From assembly GCA_025454475.1 (NCBI GenBank), contig JALOOJ010000028.1, positions 1 to 32,624 of the forward strand: DNA of 32,624 bases, read 5' to 3'. The stretch is from Anaerolineae bacterium (GTDB lineage: Bacteria > Chloroflexota > Anaerolineae > B4-G1 > SLSP01). The notes under the pieces are model-generated. The model was not told the DNA's origin and did not search any database. It saw only the letters and a list, made by a program, of their open reading frames with translations. The number at the start of each line of letters is the position of its first letter. Within the stretch, counting starts at the first letter, position 1. Shown here piece by piece: positions 290-8,106 of the stretch. A program made the position numbers and the translations under genes.

Positions 290-1654
<1,365 letters not shown>

Positions 1655-1736
1655 GAAACCGCGCGCGGAGTGCGCCCTTCGGGATGCCGCAGCCACTCTA
1701 CCCCTTTCCTTACTTGCACCCCGCAGAAACCGTGCG

Positions 1737-1765
1737 TTGACACTGGAGGCGGGCGCGCCTATACT
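1737..1765 (+). promoter_or_regulatory. Near-consensus sigma-70 promoter of the vWA/PP2C/LRR/kinase cluster
   Basis: A perfect TTGACA (1737-1742) is followed by a 17-base spacer and TATACT (1760-1765), 11 of 12 consensus positions with ideal spacing. Transcription would start near 1772, leaving a leader of about 95 bases before the vWA gene at 1867. This is one of the strongest-looking promoters in the window and suggests substantial basal expression by the housekeeping sigma factor. The leader shows no riboswitch or strong hairpin that I can recognise. Confidence 0.7.
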
Positions 1766-1866
1766 ATGCAGTGAACGCAGCCGTTCGGCAGCCGTCGCGT
1801 AGCCTGCTGGTGTGCATCAGGCGGGCGACCGGCGAGCCTCTAGACGATTGGCAAGGAGGTAGTTCG

Positions 1867-2583
1867 ATGAACAGACGACCTGGTGGTGAGCTCGCCACCC
1901 GACCCCTTCACTTCATCTGGATCGCTGACTGCTCGGGGTCGATGAAGACCGATGGCAAGATCCAGTCGCTGAACGTGGCGATCCGCGAGGCGATTCCTCA
2001 CATGCAGAAGGTGGCCGCCGAGAACCCTAACGCGCAGGTGCTCGTGCGCGCGATCAAATTCTCGAGCGGCGCTCAGTGGCACATCTCACAGCCGACACTG
2101 GTTGAGGATTTCAAGTGGGTGGACCTGCAGGCCGATGGCGTAACCGACATGGGGAAGGCGCTGTCAATGGTTGCTGAACAGCTCAAGATCCCGCCGATGA
2201 CCGATCGCGCTCTGCCTCCGGTCCTGGTCCTGATCTCCGATGGGCAGCCAACAGACAGCTTCGAGAAGGGATTGTCTGAGCTGATGGATCAACCTTGGGG
2301 CACGAAGGCGGTCAGGATCGCGATTGCCATCGGTTCCGATGCAGACCACGACGTGCTGCAGAAGTTTATCGGGCACGTCGAGATCAAGCCCCTGCAGGCG
2401 AACAACCCCGAATCGCTCGTCAATTACATCAAGTGGGTCTCGACCGCGGTCCTGAAGTCCGCCTCATCGCCGGCCAGCCAGTCTGCGGGGGCTGCGCCGG
2501 TCTCGAACGTTCCGGTGCCCGCTGTACCCACGGCGGCGCCGTCATCCGGGGGCGGACCCGTTACGGCCGACGACGTCTGGTAG
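1867..2583 (+). CDS. TerY-like von Willebrand factor A (vWA) domain protein
   Basis: The 238-aa protein is a single vWA domain plus a Pro/Ala/Ser-rich tail ending in DDVW. The metal-ion-dependent adhesion site is complete: D21-C-S23-G-S25 near the N-terminus, a Thr in GVTDMG, and an Asp in ISDGQPTD. There is no signal peptide, so it should be cytosolic. It fits the TerY class of vWA proteins, which are genetically linked with a PP2C phosphatase and a kinase; both follow here. The open frame extends upstream to 1771, but AAGGAGGT at 1853-1860 sits just before the ATG at 1867, so that start is preferred. It is first in the operon, 20 bases ahead of the phosphatase gene. Its role as a metal-dependent adaptor assembling the phospho-signalling complex is inferred from the family. 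Confidence 0.88.
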   Translation: MNRRPGGELATRPLHFIWIADCSGSMKTDGKIQSLNVAIREAIPHMQKVAAENPNAQVLVRAIKFSSGAQWHISQPTLVEDFKWVDLQADGVTDMGKALSMVAEQLKIPPMTDRALPPVLVLISDGQPTDSFEKGLSELMDQPWGTKAVRIAIAIGSDADHDVLQKFIGHVEIKPLQANNPESLVNYIKWVSTAVLKSASSPASQSAGAAPVSNVPVPAVPTAAPSSGGGPVTADDVW

Positions 2584-2603
2584 CGGTAGAGCCGGTCAAT
2601 GCT

Positions 2604-3734
2604 ATGAGTCAAGCACCAGAGTGGCGCGTGACGGGTGCGTCGGTTCGCGGTGCAGCGCATGTGCGCGCTGCATTGCCCAACCAGGATGCGATCCTGTGGT
2701 GGCCCGACGGCCAAACCGGGCCTCCGCTGATTCTCGTCGTCTCTGACGGGCACGGCAGCGACAAGAGTTTCCGCAGCGACGTCGGCTCGCGGTTGGCAGT
2801 TGAGTGCGCCGCTGCCTTGCTGCGCGAGCTGCTGCTGATTCAGCCTGCAGCTAAGCACCTCTCTGCGATTAAGCGAGCACTGGAGGAGCGCCTACCGCTG
2901 GAGCTGGTGAAGGACTGGCGATCCGCAGTGGATGTGGACCTTGCGGCGGCGCCGTTCACTGAAGCCGAACTAGCGCGAGTCGAACAGAGGCGTGGCCCTG
3001 CCGGCAGGCAGGAGGTTGTGGAGAATCCCCGCCTCGCATATGGTGCAACGCTGCTGGCTGCGGTCGTGGCGCAGGAGTTCATCGCATACCTGCAGCTTGG
3101 TGATGGTGACATCCTGACGATCGCGCGCGACGGCGCAGTGATGCGCCCGTTCGCTCATGATGCACGGCTGATCGCCAACGAGACGACGTCTCTCTGCATG
3201 GAACACGCAGCGCGTGAGGTGCGAATTCGGTTCCAGGCAGCGTACGGCGAGGAGCCTGCCTTGATCCTGCTGGCCACGGATGGCTACGCCAACTCGTTCG
3301 TGAACGAGGAGGCGTTCCTCAAGGTGGGCACCGATCTGCTCGACATCCTTCGGGAGGACGGAGCGACCGTGGTAGCCGGTGCGTTGCCGGGCTGGCTGGA
3401 GGACGCATCGACTGCGGGCAGCGGCGATGACATCTCTCTGGGGATTCTGTTCCGTGGGGATATCCAGGTCTCCGCGGACGCGCCCGCTGATGATGGAGCG
3501 CCGGAGATCGCCGATACGTCATTGTTGGTCGAGTCGTCCAGGCCGTCGCACAAAGGCGCCACCGCCGCTGAACCCGAATCCACTGACGAGGGGGCACAGC
3601 GGAGCCGGTTCGTAGCGCGCATCAAGCAGCGGGGTCCGACCGAACCCAGCAAGCGAGGTCGTCTTGCGGACTTGGGATTGGCCGAGGCCGGCGCTTCCGA
3701 CGCTGGGCATGCCGAGGGTGATGAGGGGGCGTAG
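2604..3734 (+). CDS. PP2C-family Ser/Thr protein phosphatase
   Basis: The 376-aa protein carries the PP2C metal-binding motifs in order: VVSDGHGSDKSFRSDVGSR near residue 50, LQLGDGDIL near 165, LATDGYANSF near 220, and GSGDDISLGILF near 275. The N-terminal phrase with ALPNQDAI also fits PP2C-type phosphatases that remove phosphate from Ser/Thr. About 90 C-terminal residues form a charged, low-complexity tail with no recognised domain. No signal peptide or membrane segment is visible. The longest open frame begins at 2295, but that part overlaps the vWA gene and does not look conserved. ATG 2604 begins just before the recognisable domain and lies 20 bases after the vWA stop, without a strong SD. 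It probably counteracts the kinase encoded at 5502-6824. Confidence 0.88.
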   Translation: MSQAPEWRVTGASVRGAAHVRAALPNQDAILWWPDGQTGPPLILVVSDGHGSDKSFRSDVGSRLAVECAAALLRELLLIQPAAKHLSAIKRALEERLPLELVKDWRSAVDVDLAAAPFTEAELARVEQRRGPAGRQEVVENPRLAYGATLLAAVVAQEFIAYLQLGDGDILTIARDGAVMRPFAHDARLIANETTSLCMEHAAREVRIRFQAAYGEEPALILLATDGYANSFVNEEAFLKVGTDLLDILREDGATVVAGALPGWLEDASTAGSGDDISLGILFRGDIQVSADAPADDGAPEIADTSLLVESSRPSHKGATAAEPESTDEGAQRSRFVARIKQRGPTEPSKRGRLADLGLAEAGASDAGHAEGDEGA

Positions 3735-3836
3735 CGTTGACACAGGTCACTTGCCCTGCCAGACCCGCGGCCTACGTTTCCCGATACCTGCTGTGCGCCA
3801 TCGCCTCAGACCCGAACGCGTGACCGGTTGGTTGGT

Positions 3837-5468
3837 GTGAACGACGTGCCCCGCCGGATGCTTCGGGAGATCGTCCAACGCTATGGGCGCGATGTGCTGC
3901 GCGACCCGCGCCGTTGTCGTGCGCTTCTGCTCGATCTCTGCGGCGAGTATAGGGGGGAGATCAACCTGCTGGAGATGGCGCTGCGAGAGGATCTCGCCCG
4001 CGAAGTCGCTGAATCGTCCCCACATTATCCCCGAGCGCTTCTCGTCGCACGGCTCGCCCAGCGTCTACGCGATGCCTACTACTTGCCCGAGGAAGCGGCG
4101 CGGTGGGCGGTCATCGCCTGTGTTGAGGCGCTCGACGACGGCGCCGCTGGCGCGCCTGAGGGATCGCGTGTCTTGCGCTCCGGCGTGGCGGCCCGGGTGC
4201 TGGTTCGGCGTTGGTTGGACCCCGATGACGCGTGGCGTGAGATTGGTGCGACGCCTGGGGATGTCGTCGTTCCAGCGGACCTCGAGGTCAGTGTTGTCTC
4301 CCGTGTAGACGATGCTGCTCTCCCGGTCCTGGCGCGAGACCTCGCGGCGTTCGGTGAGATCCAGCGGCTTGATCTGAGCTATTCCGCCGTCAGCGGCGCG
4401 ACCCTCAACGCCCTTGATGTCGTCGAAGGGTTGCTTTGTCTTGATCTCTCGCGGACACACGTCGCAGATGATGCGCTCGCCTTCGTCGCTGACCACGCCC
4501 AGCTGATGGAGCTTGACCTCTGGGGCTGTGATTCCGTCACCGATATCGGGATGTCGCACCTGGGAGCTATGCCGCGGTTACAGCGTCTCGAACTGGGGCA
4601 GGTCGGCGGCATTACGAGCTCCGGCCTGCCTGCACTAGCGGTGCTGCCCCGCCTGAGCGCTCTGGGCGTCTCTGGCACGCGCGTTGACGACAGCGGTCTC
4701 GCGGCACTTCGCCCGATGCGCTCGCTCAAGCGGCTCGATCTAGCTCACACGAGCATCGTGGGATCAGGGTTGCCCTCCTTGGTTGAGTGCCCTGAGTTGT
4801 GGTCGCTCAGCCTCTTCGGATGCGTGGGACTGCGGCCGGAGACGTTAGCGGCGCTGCGACGGCTGCACGCGCTGTCGGCGCTGAACCTTGGGCGTTGTGG
4901 CCTGCTGTCTGATCAGGCAATGGTCTACCTCCGCCCCCTGCGCATGCTGTCTGAGCTGCGACTCGAGGGCATTCCCATCACCGACGGTGGCATCCTGTAT
5001 GTGACCGATCTACACGGCCTCGCGGTGCTCGATCTGAGCTGGACGCGTGTGGCAGATGCCGGCGTCGCACGCCTTGGGGTGCTGCGGGGGCTGCGTACAC
5101 TGATGCTGGCGGGAACGGGTCTGACGGACACGGGGACTGTGTCCCTGGCGTCGTTGCGCGGACTCGCCGAACTGGATATCTCGAACACCCGCGTCACTGA
5201 CGCTGGGCTTAGGACTCTGAGTGCTCTGGAGACACTGGAGAGCCTGGACCTGGAGGCTACGGACGTACACGACGCCGGGCTTGTGCACCTGGGTGAGTTC
5301 CCTCAGCTACGCAAGCTCTACCTGGGCCGAACGCCCGTCACGGACAAGGGCCTCGAGCTGCTACAACGCGTGACTCACCTGGATCAGATCGATCTGACCA
5401 TGTGCAGACGGGTCACCGCCGACGGCGTGAGACGGCTGGAGGAGGCAGGTGTGGCCGTCTCCTGTTAG
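3837..5468 (+). CDS. Leucine-rich-repeat protein with an N-terminal helical module
   Basis: This is a protein of about 543 aa. Residues 1 to about 100 form a helical module (LREIVQRYGRDVL, then DPRRCRALLLDLCGEYRGEI, then a helix around EEAARWAV). I recognise it as a recurring segment of multi-domain bacterial signalling proteins but cannot name it. From about 4345 to the end there are 15 tandem LRRs of 24-25 residues, with the pattern L-x-x-L-x-L-x-x-T-x-[VI]-x-D-x-G-L-x-x-L, as in cysteine-containing/AMN1-like LRRs. No signal peptide or membrane segment is visible, so a cytosolic binding scaffold is likely. It lies between the phosphatase (about 100 bases away) and the kinase (33 bases away). 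The start is uncertain because TTG 3828, GTG 3837, GTG 3846 and ATG 3858 are all in frame and none has a good SD. Confidence 0.85.
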   Translation: MNDVPRRMLREIVQRYGRDVLRDPRRCRALLLDLCGEYRGEINLLEMALREDLAREVAESSPHYPRALLVARLAQRLRDAYYLPEEAARWAVIACVEALDDGAAGAPEGSRVLRSGVAARVLVRRWLDPDDAWREIGATPGDVVVPADLEVSVVSRVDDAALPVLARDLAAFGEIQRLDLSYSAVSGATLNALDVVEGLLCLDLSRTHVADDALAFVADHAQLMELDLWGCDSVTDIGMSHLGAMPRLQRLELGQVGGITSSGLPALAVLPRLSALGVSGTRVDDSGLAALRPMRSLKRLDLAHTSIVGSGLPSLVECPELWSLSLFGCVGLRPETLAALRRLHALSALNLGRCGLLSDQAMVYLRPLRMLSELRLEGIPITDGGILYVTDLHGLAVLDLSWTRVADAGVARLGVLRGLRTLMLAGTGLTDTGTVSLASLRGLAELDISNTRVTDAGLRTLSALETLESLDLEATDVHDAGLVHLGEFPQLRKLYLGRTPVTDKGLELLQRVTHLDQIDLTMCRRVTADGVRRLEEAGVAVSC

Positions 5469-5501
5469 CTGGGGAGGGCACCGCAAGATAGGGAGGTAGA
5501 T

Positions 5502-6824
5502 ATGCCGATACTGCGAGATGGTCAGGAAGTGCAGACGACTACGTCGAGAATGTCGTGTAAGGTGGAGGCGTTTCTGGGCGGCGGGGGCCAGGGAGAGGTC
5601 TACCGTGCAGTCCTCGACGGCAAGGTAATCGCCCTGAAGTGGTACTTCCCGGCGCAGGCGACGCCTGAACAGCGCTCTGCGCTGGAGGTGTTGGCCAAGA
5701 AGGGGCCCCCTACGGCCAAGTTTCTGTGGCCGATGGAGTTGGCCGAGTCGCCCGATGTCGTTGGGTTCGGCTACGTGATGCCGCTGCGCGAGTCGCGCTA
5801 CAAAAGCATTGTTGACCTCATGAAGCGACGAGCTGAACCCACGTTTCGTGCACTGGCGACGGCGGGGCTGGAGCTTGCGCACAGTTTCCTCGATCTCCAT
5901 GCGATGGGGCTGTGCTATCGAGACATCTCGTTCGGCAATGTCTTCTTCGATCCGGACTCGGGCGAGGTCCTGATCTGCGACAATGACAACGTTGCGGTTG
6001 ACGGGCAGGGTGAGGCCGGTGTTCTGGGTACGCCGCGGTTCATGGCGCCGGAGATCGTGCGGGGCGAGGCTTTGCCGAGCGCGAACACGGACCTCTTCTC
6101 ACTGGCGGTCCTCCTGTTTTATATGCTGGTGATGCACCATCCGCTCGAGGGACAGCGGGAGCAGGAGATCAAGTGCCTTGATCTGCCCGCGATGAACAGG
6201 CTTTACGGCACCGATCCGTTGTTCATCTACGATCCCGTTGATGCCTCGAACCGTCCTGTGGCAGGTGTTCACGACAATGCAGTCGTGTTCTGGTCGCTCT
6301 ACCCTCAGTTCGTCCGCGATCTGTTCACCCGTTCCTTCACGACGGGGCTGCGCGACCCGGTGAATGGGCGGGTTCGCGAAAGCGAGTGGCGCGCCGCGAT
6401 GTCACGTCTGCGGGATAGCATCTACTACTGCGGGCATTGCGGCGCCGAGGCCTTCTATGACGTGGATGCGCTTCGTGCTTCGAGCGGTGTTCCCGGTGTG
6501 TGCTGGTCATGCGGCACTGCGCTTGTCCTGCCTCCGCGGATTCGCATCGGCGACGTCGTACTGATGCTCAACTATGATGCGCGGCTCTATCCGCACCATG
6601 TGGATGACGATCGGCTGTACGACTTCACAAAGCCTGTGGCCGAGGTCGCTCAGCACCCCAGGGATCCCAGCATCTGGGGTCTACGGAATGTAGGCGACGA
6701 CAAGTGGACGGTGACGACGGATGGGGGACAGACCTATCAGGACGTTGTGCCTGGCCGGAGCGTCACGCTAGCGGTTGGGACGCGGATAAACTTCGGGAAG
6801 CAGGAAGGCGAGATTAGGGTCTAG
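5502..6824 (+). CDS. Ser/Thr-type protein kinase with C-terminal zinc ribbon (TerY-P triad kinase)
   Basis: The 440-aa protein has a kinase domain over residues 20 to about 300. The glycine loop is GGGGQGEVY (26-34), the ATP-binding Lys is K46 in IALKWY, the catalytic loop is YRDISFGN (D141, N146), and APE is at 182-184. The usual DFG is replaced by DND (160-162), so the metal-binding Asp is kept but Phe-Gly is lost. A four-cysteine zinc ribbon (CGHCGAE then CWSCGTA) starts near residue 309. A C-terminal beta-rich domain with YPHHVDDDRLYDF and INFGKQEGEIRV follows. There is no membrane segment. AGGGAGGT just upstream fixes the start. The domain layout and the vWA and PP2C partners match the kinase of TerY-P triads. 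It is the last gene of the operon, followed by a long hairpin at 6847. Confidence 0.9.
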   Translation: MPILRDGQEVQTTTSRMSCKVEAFLGGGGQGEVYRAVLDGKVIALKWYFPAQATPEQRSALEVLAKKGPPTAKFLWPMELAESPDVVGFGYVMPLRESRYKSIVDLMKRRAEPTFRALATAGLELAHSFLDLHAMGLCYRDISFGNVFFDPDSGEVLICDNDNVAVDGQGEAGVLGTPRFMAPEIVRGEALPSANTDLFSLAVLLFYMLVMHHPLEGQREQEIKCLDLPAMNRLYGTDPLFIYDPVDASNRPVAGVHDNAVVFWSLYPQFVRDLFTRSFTTGLRDPVNGRVRESEWRAAMSRLRDSIYYCGHCGAEAFYDVDALRASSGVPGVCWSCGTALVLPPRIRIGDVVLMLNYDARLYPHHVDDDRLYDFTKPVAEVAQHPRDPSIWGLRNVGDDKWTVTTDGGQTYQDVVPGRSVTLAVGTRINFGKQEGEIRV

Positions 6825-6846
6825 CCACGCATTCGCCACCCTGGTC

Positions 6847-6879
6847 GGCTCCCGCCGGACGTCTGGTCCGGCGGGAGCC
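6847..6879. terminator. Bidirectional terminator-like hairpin
   Basis: A perfect 14-bp stem (6847-6860 with 6866-6879) has a 5-base GTCTG loop. It lies between the converging kinase and TadG-like genes. No clear U-tract follows on either side, so it may act as a Rho-dependent or processing/stabilising element rather than a classic intrinsic terminator. Confidence 0.5.
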
Positions 6880-6891
6880 GACGCTGAGTTC

Positions 6892-8106
6892 CTATTCCCA
6901 GAGCATTACACCAACGGTCATGGGCAGGCAGCTCGGGCCGCCCATCCCCTCGCCTGGTTGGATCTCTCCTGGGCGGATAGTTACCTCCTGGAACGTGCCG
7001 TAGATCGACTTTCCATCGACCTCAGTTAGCTCCGCAGCGACGATGCCGATGATGTGATAGTAGTAGGCCGAGCTTCCGGTAATCCACTTGTTCACCGGCT
7101 GGGGTTTCCCGGGAAACTCCGTCTCCATACATACCTCCTCTTTCGAGGAGTTGCAGGTTCCCGTGTAGATGTAGTCGAAGACGGGCATGTAGACTGTCTG
7201 ACCGATGTACTTCTGGATCTGCGGGCGCGCTGCAGCGATCTCGCCCGTGGCGCCTAGGATGAAGTCACCACCCAGAGTGCCCTCTGTGCCCAACCAGAGC
7301 GGGTAGGGATACTCGCAGTTGGCGGGATCGGCCCAACCCACGAGACCGGTTGCGCCGATATCAGGCAGCTTGCACCCTGTGGCGTTCATCGTCTGTGAGA
7401 AGGCGCGCTGGATTACGTTTGGGTCGGCGTTGTAGATGTGGCCGATCTGCAGCCAGCCGCGTTGCGAGTAGGGATCGGAGCCACCGAAACACAAATCGTC
7501 GTGCACTCGGCAGAACTGGCCTTGGTCATCATCTTTGATCTCGAACTCTTCCCCAACCCCCAAGCCCTTGAGCGCGATCACAGGTACTGCGATCGGCAGG
7601 AAGCCGCCCTTGAACTGCGTGATCCGGCCGGCCATCGCCATAGCCTGCCCCACACCGACGATGTTCCGCTGCCCGAAGAGCTTCATGAACGTGGTTGTCT
7701 CAGTCGCGACGGTGCTCGCCGCGACGCCTGTTGCGCCTGACGGGATTGGCACATCATTCCGGATCGCGCCGAGGTTAGCTCCGCCGGCATTCACGTACCA
7801 CGCCGTGACATCGCCGTCAGGGCTGAACTCATCAATGTTGTTAAGCCTGGCGTAATCGAGCACGATGTTCATAATAGCTGTGTTCCCAGCCACAGTTCTT
7901 GGCGCACATTCCGAGAGGAGTGTGCCTAGATGACGCGCGCCTGCCAGAGCTGCAGCGTCCGCAGCGTTCTGTGCCTGGCGCCGCAGCGTGTAGAGGCGCC
8001 CGCCGTCAATGGCAAGCCCCACAAGCGCTGCCAACGCGATTACGGCGAAGACCATGATGACGATCGCCTGCCCCTCCTGTCGGTCACTTCTCAGTTCCAT
8101 TGCCAT
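6892..8106 (-). CDS. TadG-like (Tad-domain) surface protein
   Basis: The 404-aa protein has a short basic N-terminus, then GQAIVIMVFAVIALAALVG and AIDGGRLYTLRRQAQNAAD, the hallmark of TadG-like proteins (Pfam 'Tad' type): one N-terminal membrane helix, then Asp-Gly-Gly and an Ala-rich amphipathic helix. The remaining 350 residues should lie outside the membrane. They are rich in Gly, Pro and aromatics with scattered Cys, and show no vWA motif that I can see. Start ATG 8106 has AGGAGG at 5 bases. It is the last gene of the seven-gene operon that starts with the ECF sigma factor. No pilin, TadA ATPase or RcpA secretin is nearby, so a classical Flp pilus cannot be claimed. Confidence 0.85.
   Translation of the reverse strand: MAMELRSDRQEGQAIVIMVFAVIALAALVGLAIDGGRLYTLRRQAQNAADAAALAGARHLGTLLSECAPRTVAGNTAIMNIVLDYARLNNIDEFSPDGDVTAWYVNAGGANLGAIRNDVPIPSGATGVAASTVATETTTFMKLFGQRNIVGVGQAMAMAGRITQFKGGFLPIAVPVIALKGLGVGEEFEIKDDDQGQFCRVHDDLCFGGSDPYSQRGWLQIGHIYNADPNVIQRAFSQTMNATGCKLPDIGATGLVGWADPANCEYPYPLWLGTEGTLGGDFILGATGEIAAARPQIQKYIGQTVYMPVFDYIYTGTCNSSKEEVCMETEFPGKPQPVNKWITGSSAYYYHIIGIVAAELTEVDGKSIYGTFQEVTIRPGEIQPGEGMGGPSCLPMTVGVMLWE

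Follow-up and report, generated by a model that had tools for sequence, protein, structure and literature searches.

A TerY-P-type kinase, phosphatase and vWA locus of an Anaerolineae bacterium with a probable family of swappable adaptor-receptors

Introduction

TerY-P triads have reportedly been known since 2012. The locus analysed here lies in a window of 32,624 nucleotides (the whole stretch of DNA that was analysed), one contig of an Anaerolineae-type genome, and has the three genes of such a triad together with a fourth gene, which encodes an LRR protein. This raises the question of whether the LRR protein belongs to the triad and what it may contribute to it. The preliminary description had proposed a four-gene variant in which the LRR protein is the system's own recognition subunit. 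The locus, its proteins and their relatives across bacteria were analysed with this proposal in view.

Results

The organization of the locus was analysed. The vWA, PP2C, LRR and kinase genes follow each other on the plus strand, downstream of one sigma-70-type promoter TTGACA-N17-TATACT (1737..1765, plus strand), a consensus match only, which agrees at 11 of 12 positions. It was the sole site detected in 1577-7000, where 0.6 were expected at 9 or more of 12 positions. The intergenic gaps are 20 nt (vWA/PP2C), about 100 nt (PP2C/LRR) and 33 nt (LRR/kinase). The same scan found no terminator-like site inside the four-gene cluster, and a weak terminator-like hairpin 3' of the kinase gene (6869..6886, plus strand) is within chance expectation. 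A single transcript of the four genes is predicted as likely. The preliminary description had placed a vWA protein with a complete MIDAS, a PP2C and a zinc-ribbon kinase behind one promoter, with the LRR gene between phosphatase and kinase in one direction; Pfam, the motifs and the promoter match confirmed the first point, and the gene coordinates the second.

The three proteins of the triad were examined individually. The TerY-like vWA protein (1867..2583, plus strand, 238 aa; Pfam VWA 1e-6) has the complete MIDAS DCSGS...T...D, is 72-96% identical to its orthologues and 31-34% identical to vWA proteins of plasmid ter clusters and other TerY-like ones (E 9e-12 to 2e-23), the identity to TerY itself being 31% in the alignment. 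Its Pro-rich linker is followed by an ADDVW tail, which is nearly invariant at the C-terminus (window 2550-2580 and orthologues). The PP2C Ser/Thr phosphatase (2604..3734, plus strand, 376 aa; PP2C_2 1e-42) has the metal-binding Asp motifs (SDGHG, TDGY, GDD) and a disordered-looking tail; PP2C tails finish in motifs such as EPSKKLPDIFYDD or LWYDD. The tail motifs of both proteins are possible docking peptides.

The Ser/Thr kinase (5502..6824, plus strand, 440 aa; Pkinase 1e-16) retains the Gly loop, the VAIK-type Lys, the RD and Asn of the catalytic loop and CxxC...CxxC in the family alignment. The zinc ribbon CxxC...CxxC (6429..6512, plus strand) has four Cys, which 13 family kinases share and which vary little or not at all among 33 diverse kinases. 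At the DFG position stands DND (ICDNDNV; residues 160-163, window 5979-5990), invariant in the 13 family kinases. The ribbon is followed by a further C-terminal domain formed by the last ~95 residues (6534..6821, plus strand), well conserved and without a family match; an FHA-like domain, suspected here by eye, was rejected because none of 33 members matched FHA in Pfam and the PDB gave nothing relevant. The kinase is about 27% identical to ter-cluster plasmid kinases over residues 5-339 (E about 1e-20 to 1e-22), and its nearest match in named records belongs to a Thermoflexales MAG.

A TerY-P module is defined, in passages of PMC11090510, as a TerY-like vWA, a PP2C-like enzyme and a kinase with a C-terminal zinc ribbon. 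Judged by sequence, the window triad corresponds to this published definition: the vWA has the MIDAS and the TerY similarity, the phosphatase is PP2C-like, the kinase carries the ribbon and resembles ter kinases up to residue 339, and the three genes stand together in an order that is kept in relatives. The earlier assignment to TerY-P is upheld by the matches of vWA and kinase to enterobacterial ter-cluster proteins. The search with defence HMM sets that it had called for agreed for the vWA, which PADLOC recognised weakly as TerY (E 2e-4), but not for the kinase, whose matches were only generic; the proposed Pfam search identified all four proteins. A TerY_C domain was not found in the window. 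Among relatives TerY_C (PF15616) occurs as a separate gene of ~120 aa or fused to PP2C (L056:2009-2371, L065:9349-9705, L046:4915-6207), and this occurrence ties the clade to TerY-P.

The LRR protein is encoded at 3837..5468 (plus strand) with a GTG start at 3837, a TTG at 3828 being possible, and matches LRR_8 (1.6e-17) and other LRR models. Its AlphaFold model (mean pLDDT 91.6) revealed a helical domain (residues 7-103), a beta region (113-157) and a 16-strand solenoid. The ~100-residue N-terminal helical domain of the fourth-component proteins is here named NDOM; in the window it lies at 3840..4136 (plus strand; HMM match E 5e-37) and is modelled as seven helices without other structure (pLDDT 93.4). 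It is followed by the short beta region (4164..4298, plus strand; model strands 113-127, 137-149 and 153-157) and by the modelled solenoid (4365..5465, plus strand), which has a ribonuclease-inhibitor/FBXL/RipG4-like curvature. The repeats number 15-16, and the earlier reading of 15 LRRs behind a helical module is correct because the model shows a helical domain and a 16-strand solenoid. On the concave side, variability among orthologues peaks within the repeat at positions x2 and x3, and x5 and x7 are fairly conserved; the ligand may equally well be fixed or changing. The case for a hypervariable concave face is accordingly balanced, x2/x3 being highest and x5/x7 low.

NDOM gave no convincing match in Pfam, NCBIfam or PDB sequences, a missing family entry being no proof of a new fold. 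Foldseek against the PDB returned nothing at E <= 0.001 (best E 1.3), and the best VIA-align Z of 5.3 is not above common helical arrangements. Against the EAD profiles in Pfam (23 and 51 NDOM members scanned) only EAD2 appeared, at E 0.15-0.17 and below the cut-off; kinship with EAD2 was rejected, the E value being just 0.15 and a genome search finding no EAD2 in the window genome. Open-access passages on TerY-P and conflict systems hold no mention of NDOM, an earlier mention in the 2012 TerY-P description being possible.

The distribution of the system was analysed by a kinase-profile scan of one genome per species (84,980 species). The 80 loci obtained are spread over more than a dozen phyla, namely Chloroflexota, Pseudomonadota, Acidobacteriota, Verrucomicrobiota, Planctomycetota, Actinomycetota, Bacteroidota, Ignavibacteriota, Lentisphaerota, Armatimonadota, Atribacterota, Bacillota, Cyanobacteriota and others. 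A viral origin was rejected, as 50,697 phage records yielded one distant kinase match. For locus counts the clade was taken as L042-L114 minus the distant L110-L113. An NDOM protein was present at 48 of its 52 complete triads, and at all 33 complete triads having at least 3 kb on both sides of the kinase. Of the four remaining, two stop at the kinase and two (L052, L072) have NDOM elsewhere in the genome; with the further clade kinases of L064, L077 and L095, kinases of this last kind total five. More than 20 arrangements of the genes occur, with NDOM between the PP2C and kinase genes, downstream of the kinase, in front or split; the gene set remains together although the order changes freely. 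Among the distant kinases, the genomes of L112 and L115 are without NDOM, and those of L110 and L113 have a divergent NDOM.

The genome counts are in accordance with the locus counts. Of 301 Chloroflexota genomes, 4 have the kinase and 5 have NDOM, all 4 kinase genomes being among the 5; the probability of such an overlap by chance is about 1.5e-8 (hypergeometric hand calculation, relatedness ignored). Among 60 near relatives the kinase and NDOM each occur in 18 with an overlap of 17, again with relatedness ignored, and in the exceptions (G001 and G004) the locus is cut by contig ends. Homologues of the LRR protein were found in 19 of the 60 related genomes; the region common to them is the first ~100 residues, and the related loci read vWA-PP2C-(one or two NDOM proteins)-kinase across the family. 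The phyla are interleaved in the kinase tree, therefore transfer of the whole set is likely, and co-occurrence within one clade is partly due to common descent and whole-cassette transfer. NDOM is dedicated to this kinase clade, and the constant fourth component is the N-terminal helical domain, not the LRR. The proposal of a four-gene variant that has a recognition subunit of its own is supported, with the correction that the LRR is one of many modules and NDOM the constant part.

The modules behind NDOM were compared. They comprise LRR, WD40, TPR, ankyrin, FGE, Lcl_C (C-type-lectin-like), beta-helix, SH3 after a TM helix, MORN, RDD multi-TM, vWA, a zinc ribbon with Lcl_C and some unnamed ones, so that at least ten recognition modules are joined to NDOM in different bacteria. 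No catalytic effector was recognised in the 20 representatives scanned. FGE has a C-type-lectin fold and is a ligand-binding domain in conflict systems, according to passages of PMC8195603 and PMC10907252. Diversity-generating retroelements beside FGE/Lcl_C-type NDOM proteins were sought by a crude motif search of flanking ORFs and rejected, the two matches both lying at other loci and being unconvincing. A single core can be accompanied by as many as five NDOM genes, as on the Methylomonas plasmid (L123). Some Caldilineaceae NDOM proteins have two tandem NDOM copies (L087:11161-17404, L089, L085). NDOM is fused once to a TerY-like vWA (L096), and PP2C, NDOM and LRR form one open frame of 776 aa in L031 (6904-9234). 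L032 and L037, which are closely related to L031, have PP2C and NDOM-LRR as separate genes, and a frameshift in a single assembly could explain the PP2C-NDOM fusion.

The genome of the window has a second NDOM protein, in which NDOM is joined to WD40 repeats. This orphan gene lies on another contig (C172 = L041:6476-11823) and is followed by SBP-like, SBP-vWA and coiled-coil genes, the same cassette that stands immediately behind the kinase in L031, L036, L037, L050 and L054. On the simplest reading an ancestral cluster of ~8 genes was split in two in this genome, and the NDOM-WD40 protein still serves the window kinase in trans. The coiled-coil protein has two probable TM stretches, and the cassette suggests a membrane-linked input or output. 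Relatives show extra genes. A second kinase of 844-898 aa, the C-terminal part of which is a TerY-P-type kinase with zinc ribbon, follows the first in L022:212-2857, L023:2209-4761, L025:2281-4977 and L026:11014-13548, the last with an extra kinase-like match in its N-terminal part. A methyltransferase-like gene and its partner, which probably encodes a restriction enzyme, interrupt the series of cluster genes in L022:9009-10683, L024:8606-10170 and L025:8131-9686, and an adenosine-deaminase-like gene lies between the LRR gene and the kinase gene in L022, L023 and L027.

Discussion

The locus was compared with known systems. The TerY-P triad of ter clusters (IncH plasmids; L122, CP128691.1) has the same order vWA - PP2C - kinase, a similar vWA, and a kinase whose similarity covers the zinc ribbon. 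It differs in that L122 has no NDOM protein, whereas no TerD/TerB genes adjoin the cluster in the window; in ter clusters TerY_C is fused to the vWA, and in the clade, as noted above, it is separate or PP2C-fused. The GAP1-N2 systems share the kinase(-zinc ribbon-beta domain)/PP2C/vWA theme in passages of PMC7159879, but the window locus showed no GAP1/GTPase gene, and the GAP1-N2 section of that paper does not mention NDOM. The EADs, as presented in passages of PMC7159879 and PMC8195603, are likewise small non-catalytic domains at one protein end, with changing partners (FGS/FGE, TPR, WD40 and others) and several copies per locus. NDOM is also a small helical non-catalytic domain with swapped partners, but none of its members reaches the Pfam EAD cut-off, its partners are binding modules rather than catalytic effectors, and the core of its system is a kinase/phosphatase pair and not an NTPase. 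By layout NDOM resembles the EADs, but its sequence does not match their profiles.

The reading we prefer, at a probability of roughly 0.6, is a TerY-P-type switch based on reversible Ser/Thr phosphorylation and served by a fourth, dedicated family of adaptor-receptors, with NDOM as the docking end of plug-in receptors. The kinase and PP2C would oppose each other on a shared target and so determine its phosphorylation state, and the vWA, with its MIDAS metal site, Pro-rich linker and conserved tail, may scaffold the two. The fourth protein would dock physically on this core through NDOM and bring its input module. In the window, a cytoplasmic LRR solenoid would bind a protein or other ligand and tip the kinase/phosphatase balance. 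Elsewhere NDOM would present other input modules, some behind a TM helix, so that one core may serve many inputs. The components and their conservation, the dedicated association of NDOM with the core, the module swapping and the fusions of NDOM to vWA and PP2C were observed; docking, direction of signalling, ligand, target and physiological role are inferred.

The topology of some relatives bears on this arrangement. SH3 domains bind the cell wall outside the cell in other systems. In the NDOM-TM-SH3 proteins (L073, L082, L086) NDOM is likely the cytoplasmic end of a receptor, and by analogy the LRR protein of the window may be a cytoplasmic receptor.

An anti-phage immune system, with the TerY-P core as switch, the NDOM-LRR protein as sensor of a phage protein and an effector not yet recognised, seems somewhat unlikely. 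Protection against T7-like phages is known for TerY-P modules with a kinase and OB fold (Gao et al. 2020, as cited in passages of PMC7699616 and PMC11090510), and passages of PMC11090510 have TerY-P modules accompanying CoCoNuT restriction systems. The OB-fold modules share vWA, phosphatase and kinase with the window system, but the window kinase ends in a zinc ribbon and another domain, and a fourth component is present. The swapping of sensors and the EAD-like layout resemble the conflict systems in passages of PMC7159879 and PMC8195603, and some clusters contain an inserted type II restriction-modification pair. Against this, the cluster neighbours in the window are enolase and Tad-type pilus genes, a neighbourhood with no sign of a defence island; HflX and citrate synthase genes stand behind the cluster in L080; PADLOC gave only the TerY and generic kinase matches; and no nuclease, protease, TIR or pore module was recognised on any NDOM protein scanned.

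We hold it unlikely that the NDOM proteins are substrate-recruiting adaptors, in which NDOM docks on the kinase or PP2C and the LRR, WD40 or TPR module picks the protein to be phosphorylated or dephosphorylated. F-box LRR and WD40 proteins select ubiquitin-ligase substrates and offer a parallel. The LRR and WD40 solenoids of FBXL/RNase-inhibitor shape, the several NDOM proteins with different modules at one core and the fact that every recognised module is a binding module agree with such a role, but the several NDOM proteins with TM and SH3 fit receptors better than substrate adaptors. An ordinary TerY-P triad with the LRR gene beside it by chance was ruled out by the locus and genome counts: the LRR as such is missing from many clade triads, but LRR proteins occupy the same slot across the family, contrary to the absence from all other triad loci that the preliminary description had named as refutation, and NDOM is dedicated to this kinase clade and fused with core proteins.

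Conclusion

The adaptor-receptor reading has a wider form, for which the odds seem about even, that NDOM is an unrecognised, widespread receptor class in which one docking domain would wire at least ten kinds of cytoplasmic, membrane-spanning and extracytoplasmic sensor into a kinase/phosphatase/vWA core, like receptor families that share one signalling domain. The dedicated, swappable fourth component is a concrete candidate for the input side of TerY-P triads. The swappable module makes TerY-P sensing testable, and the NDOM profile is a means to find and annotate such receptors in many phyla.
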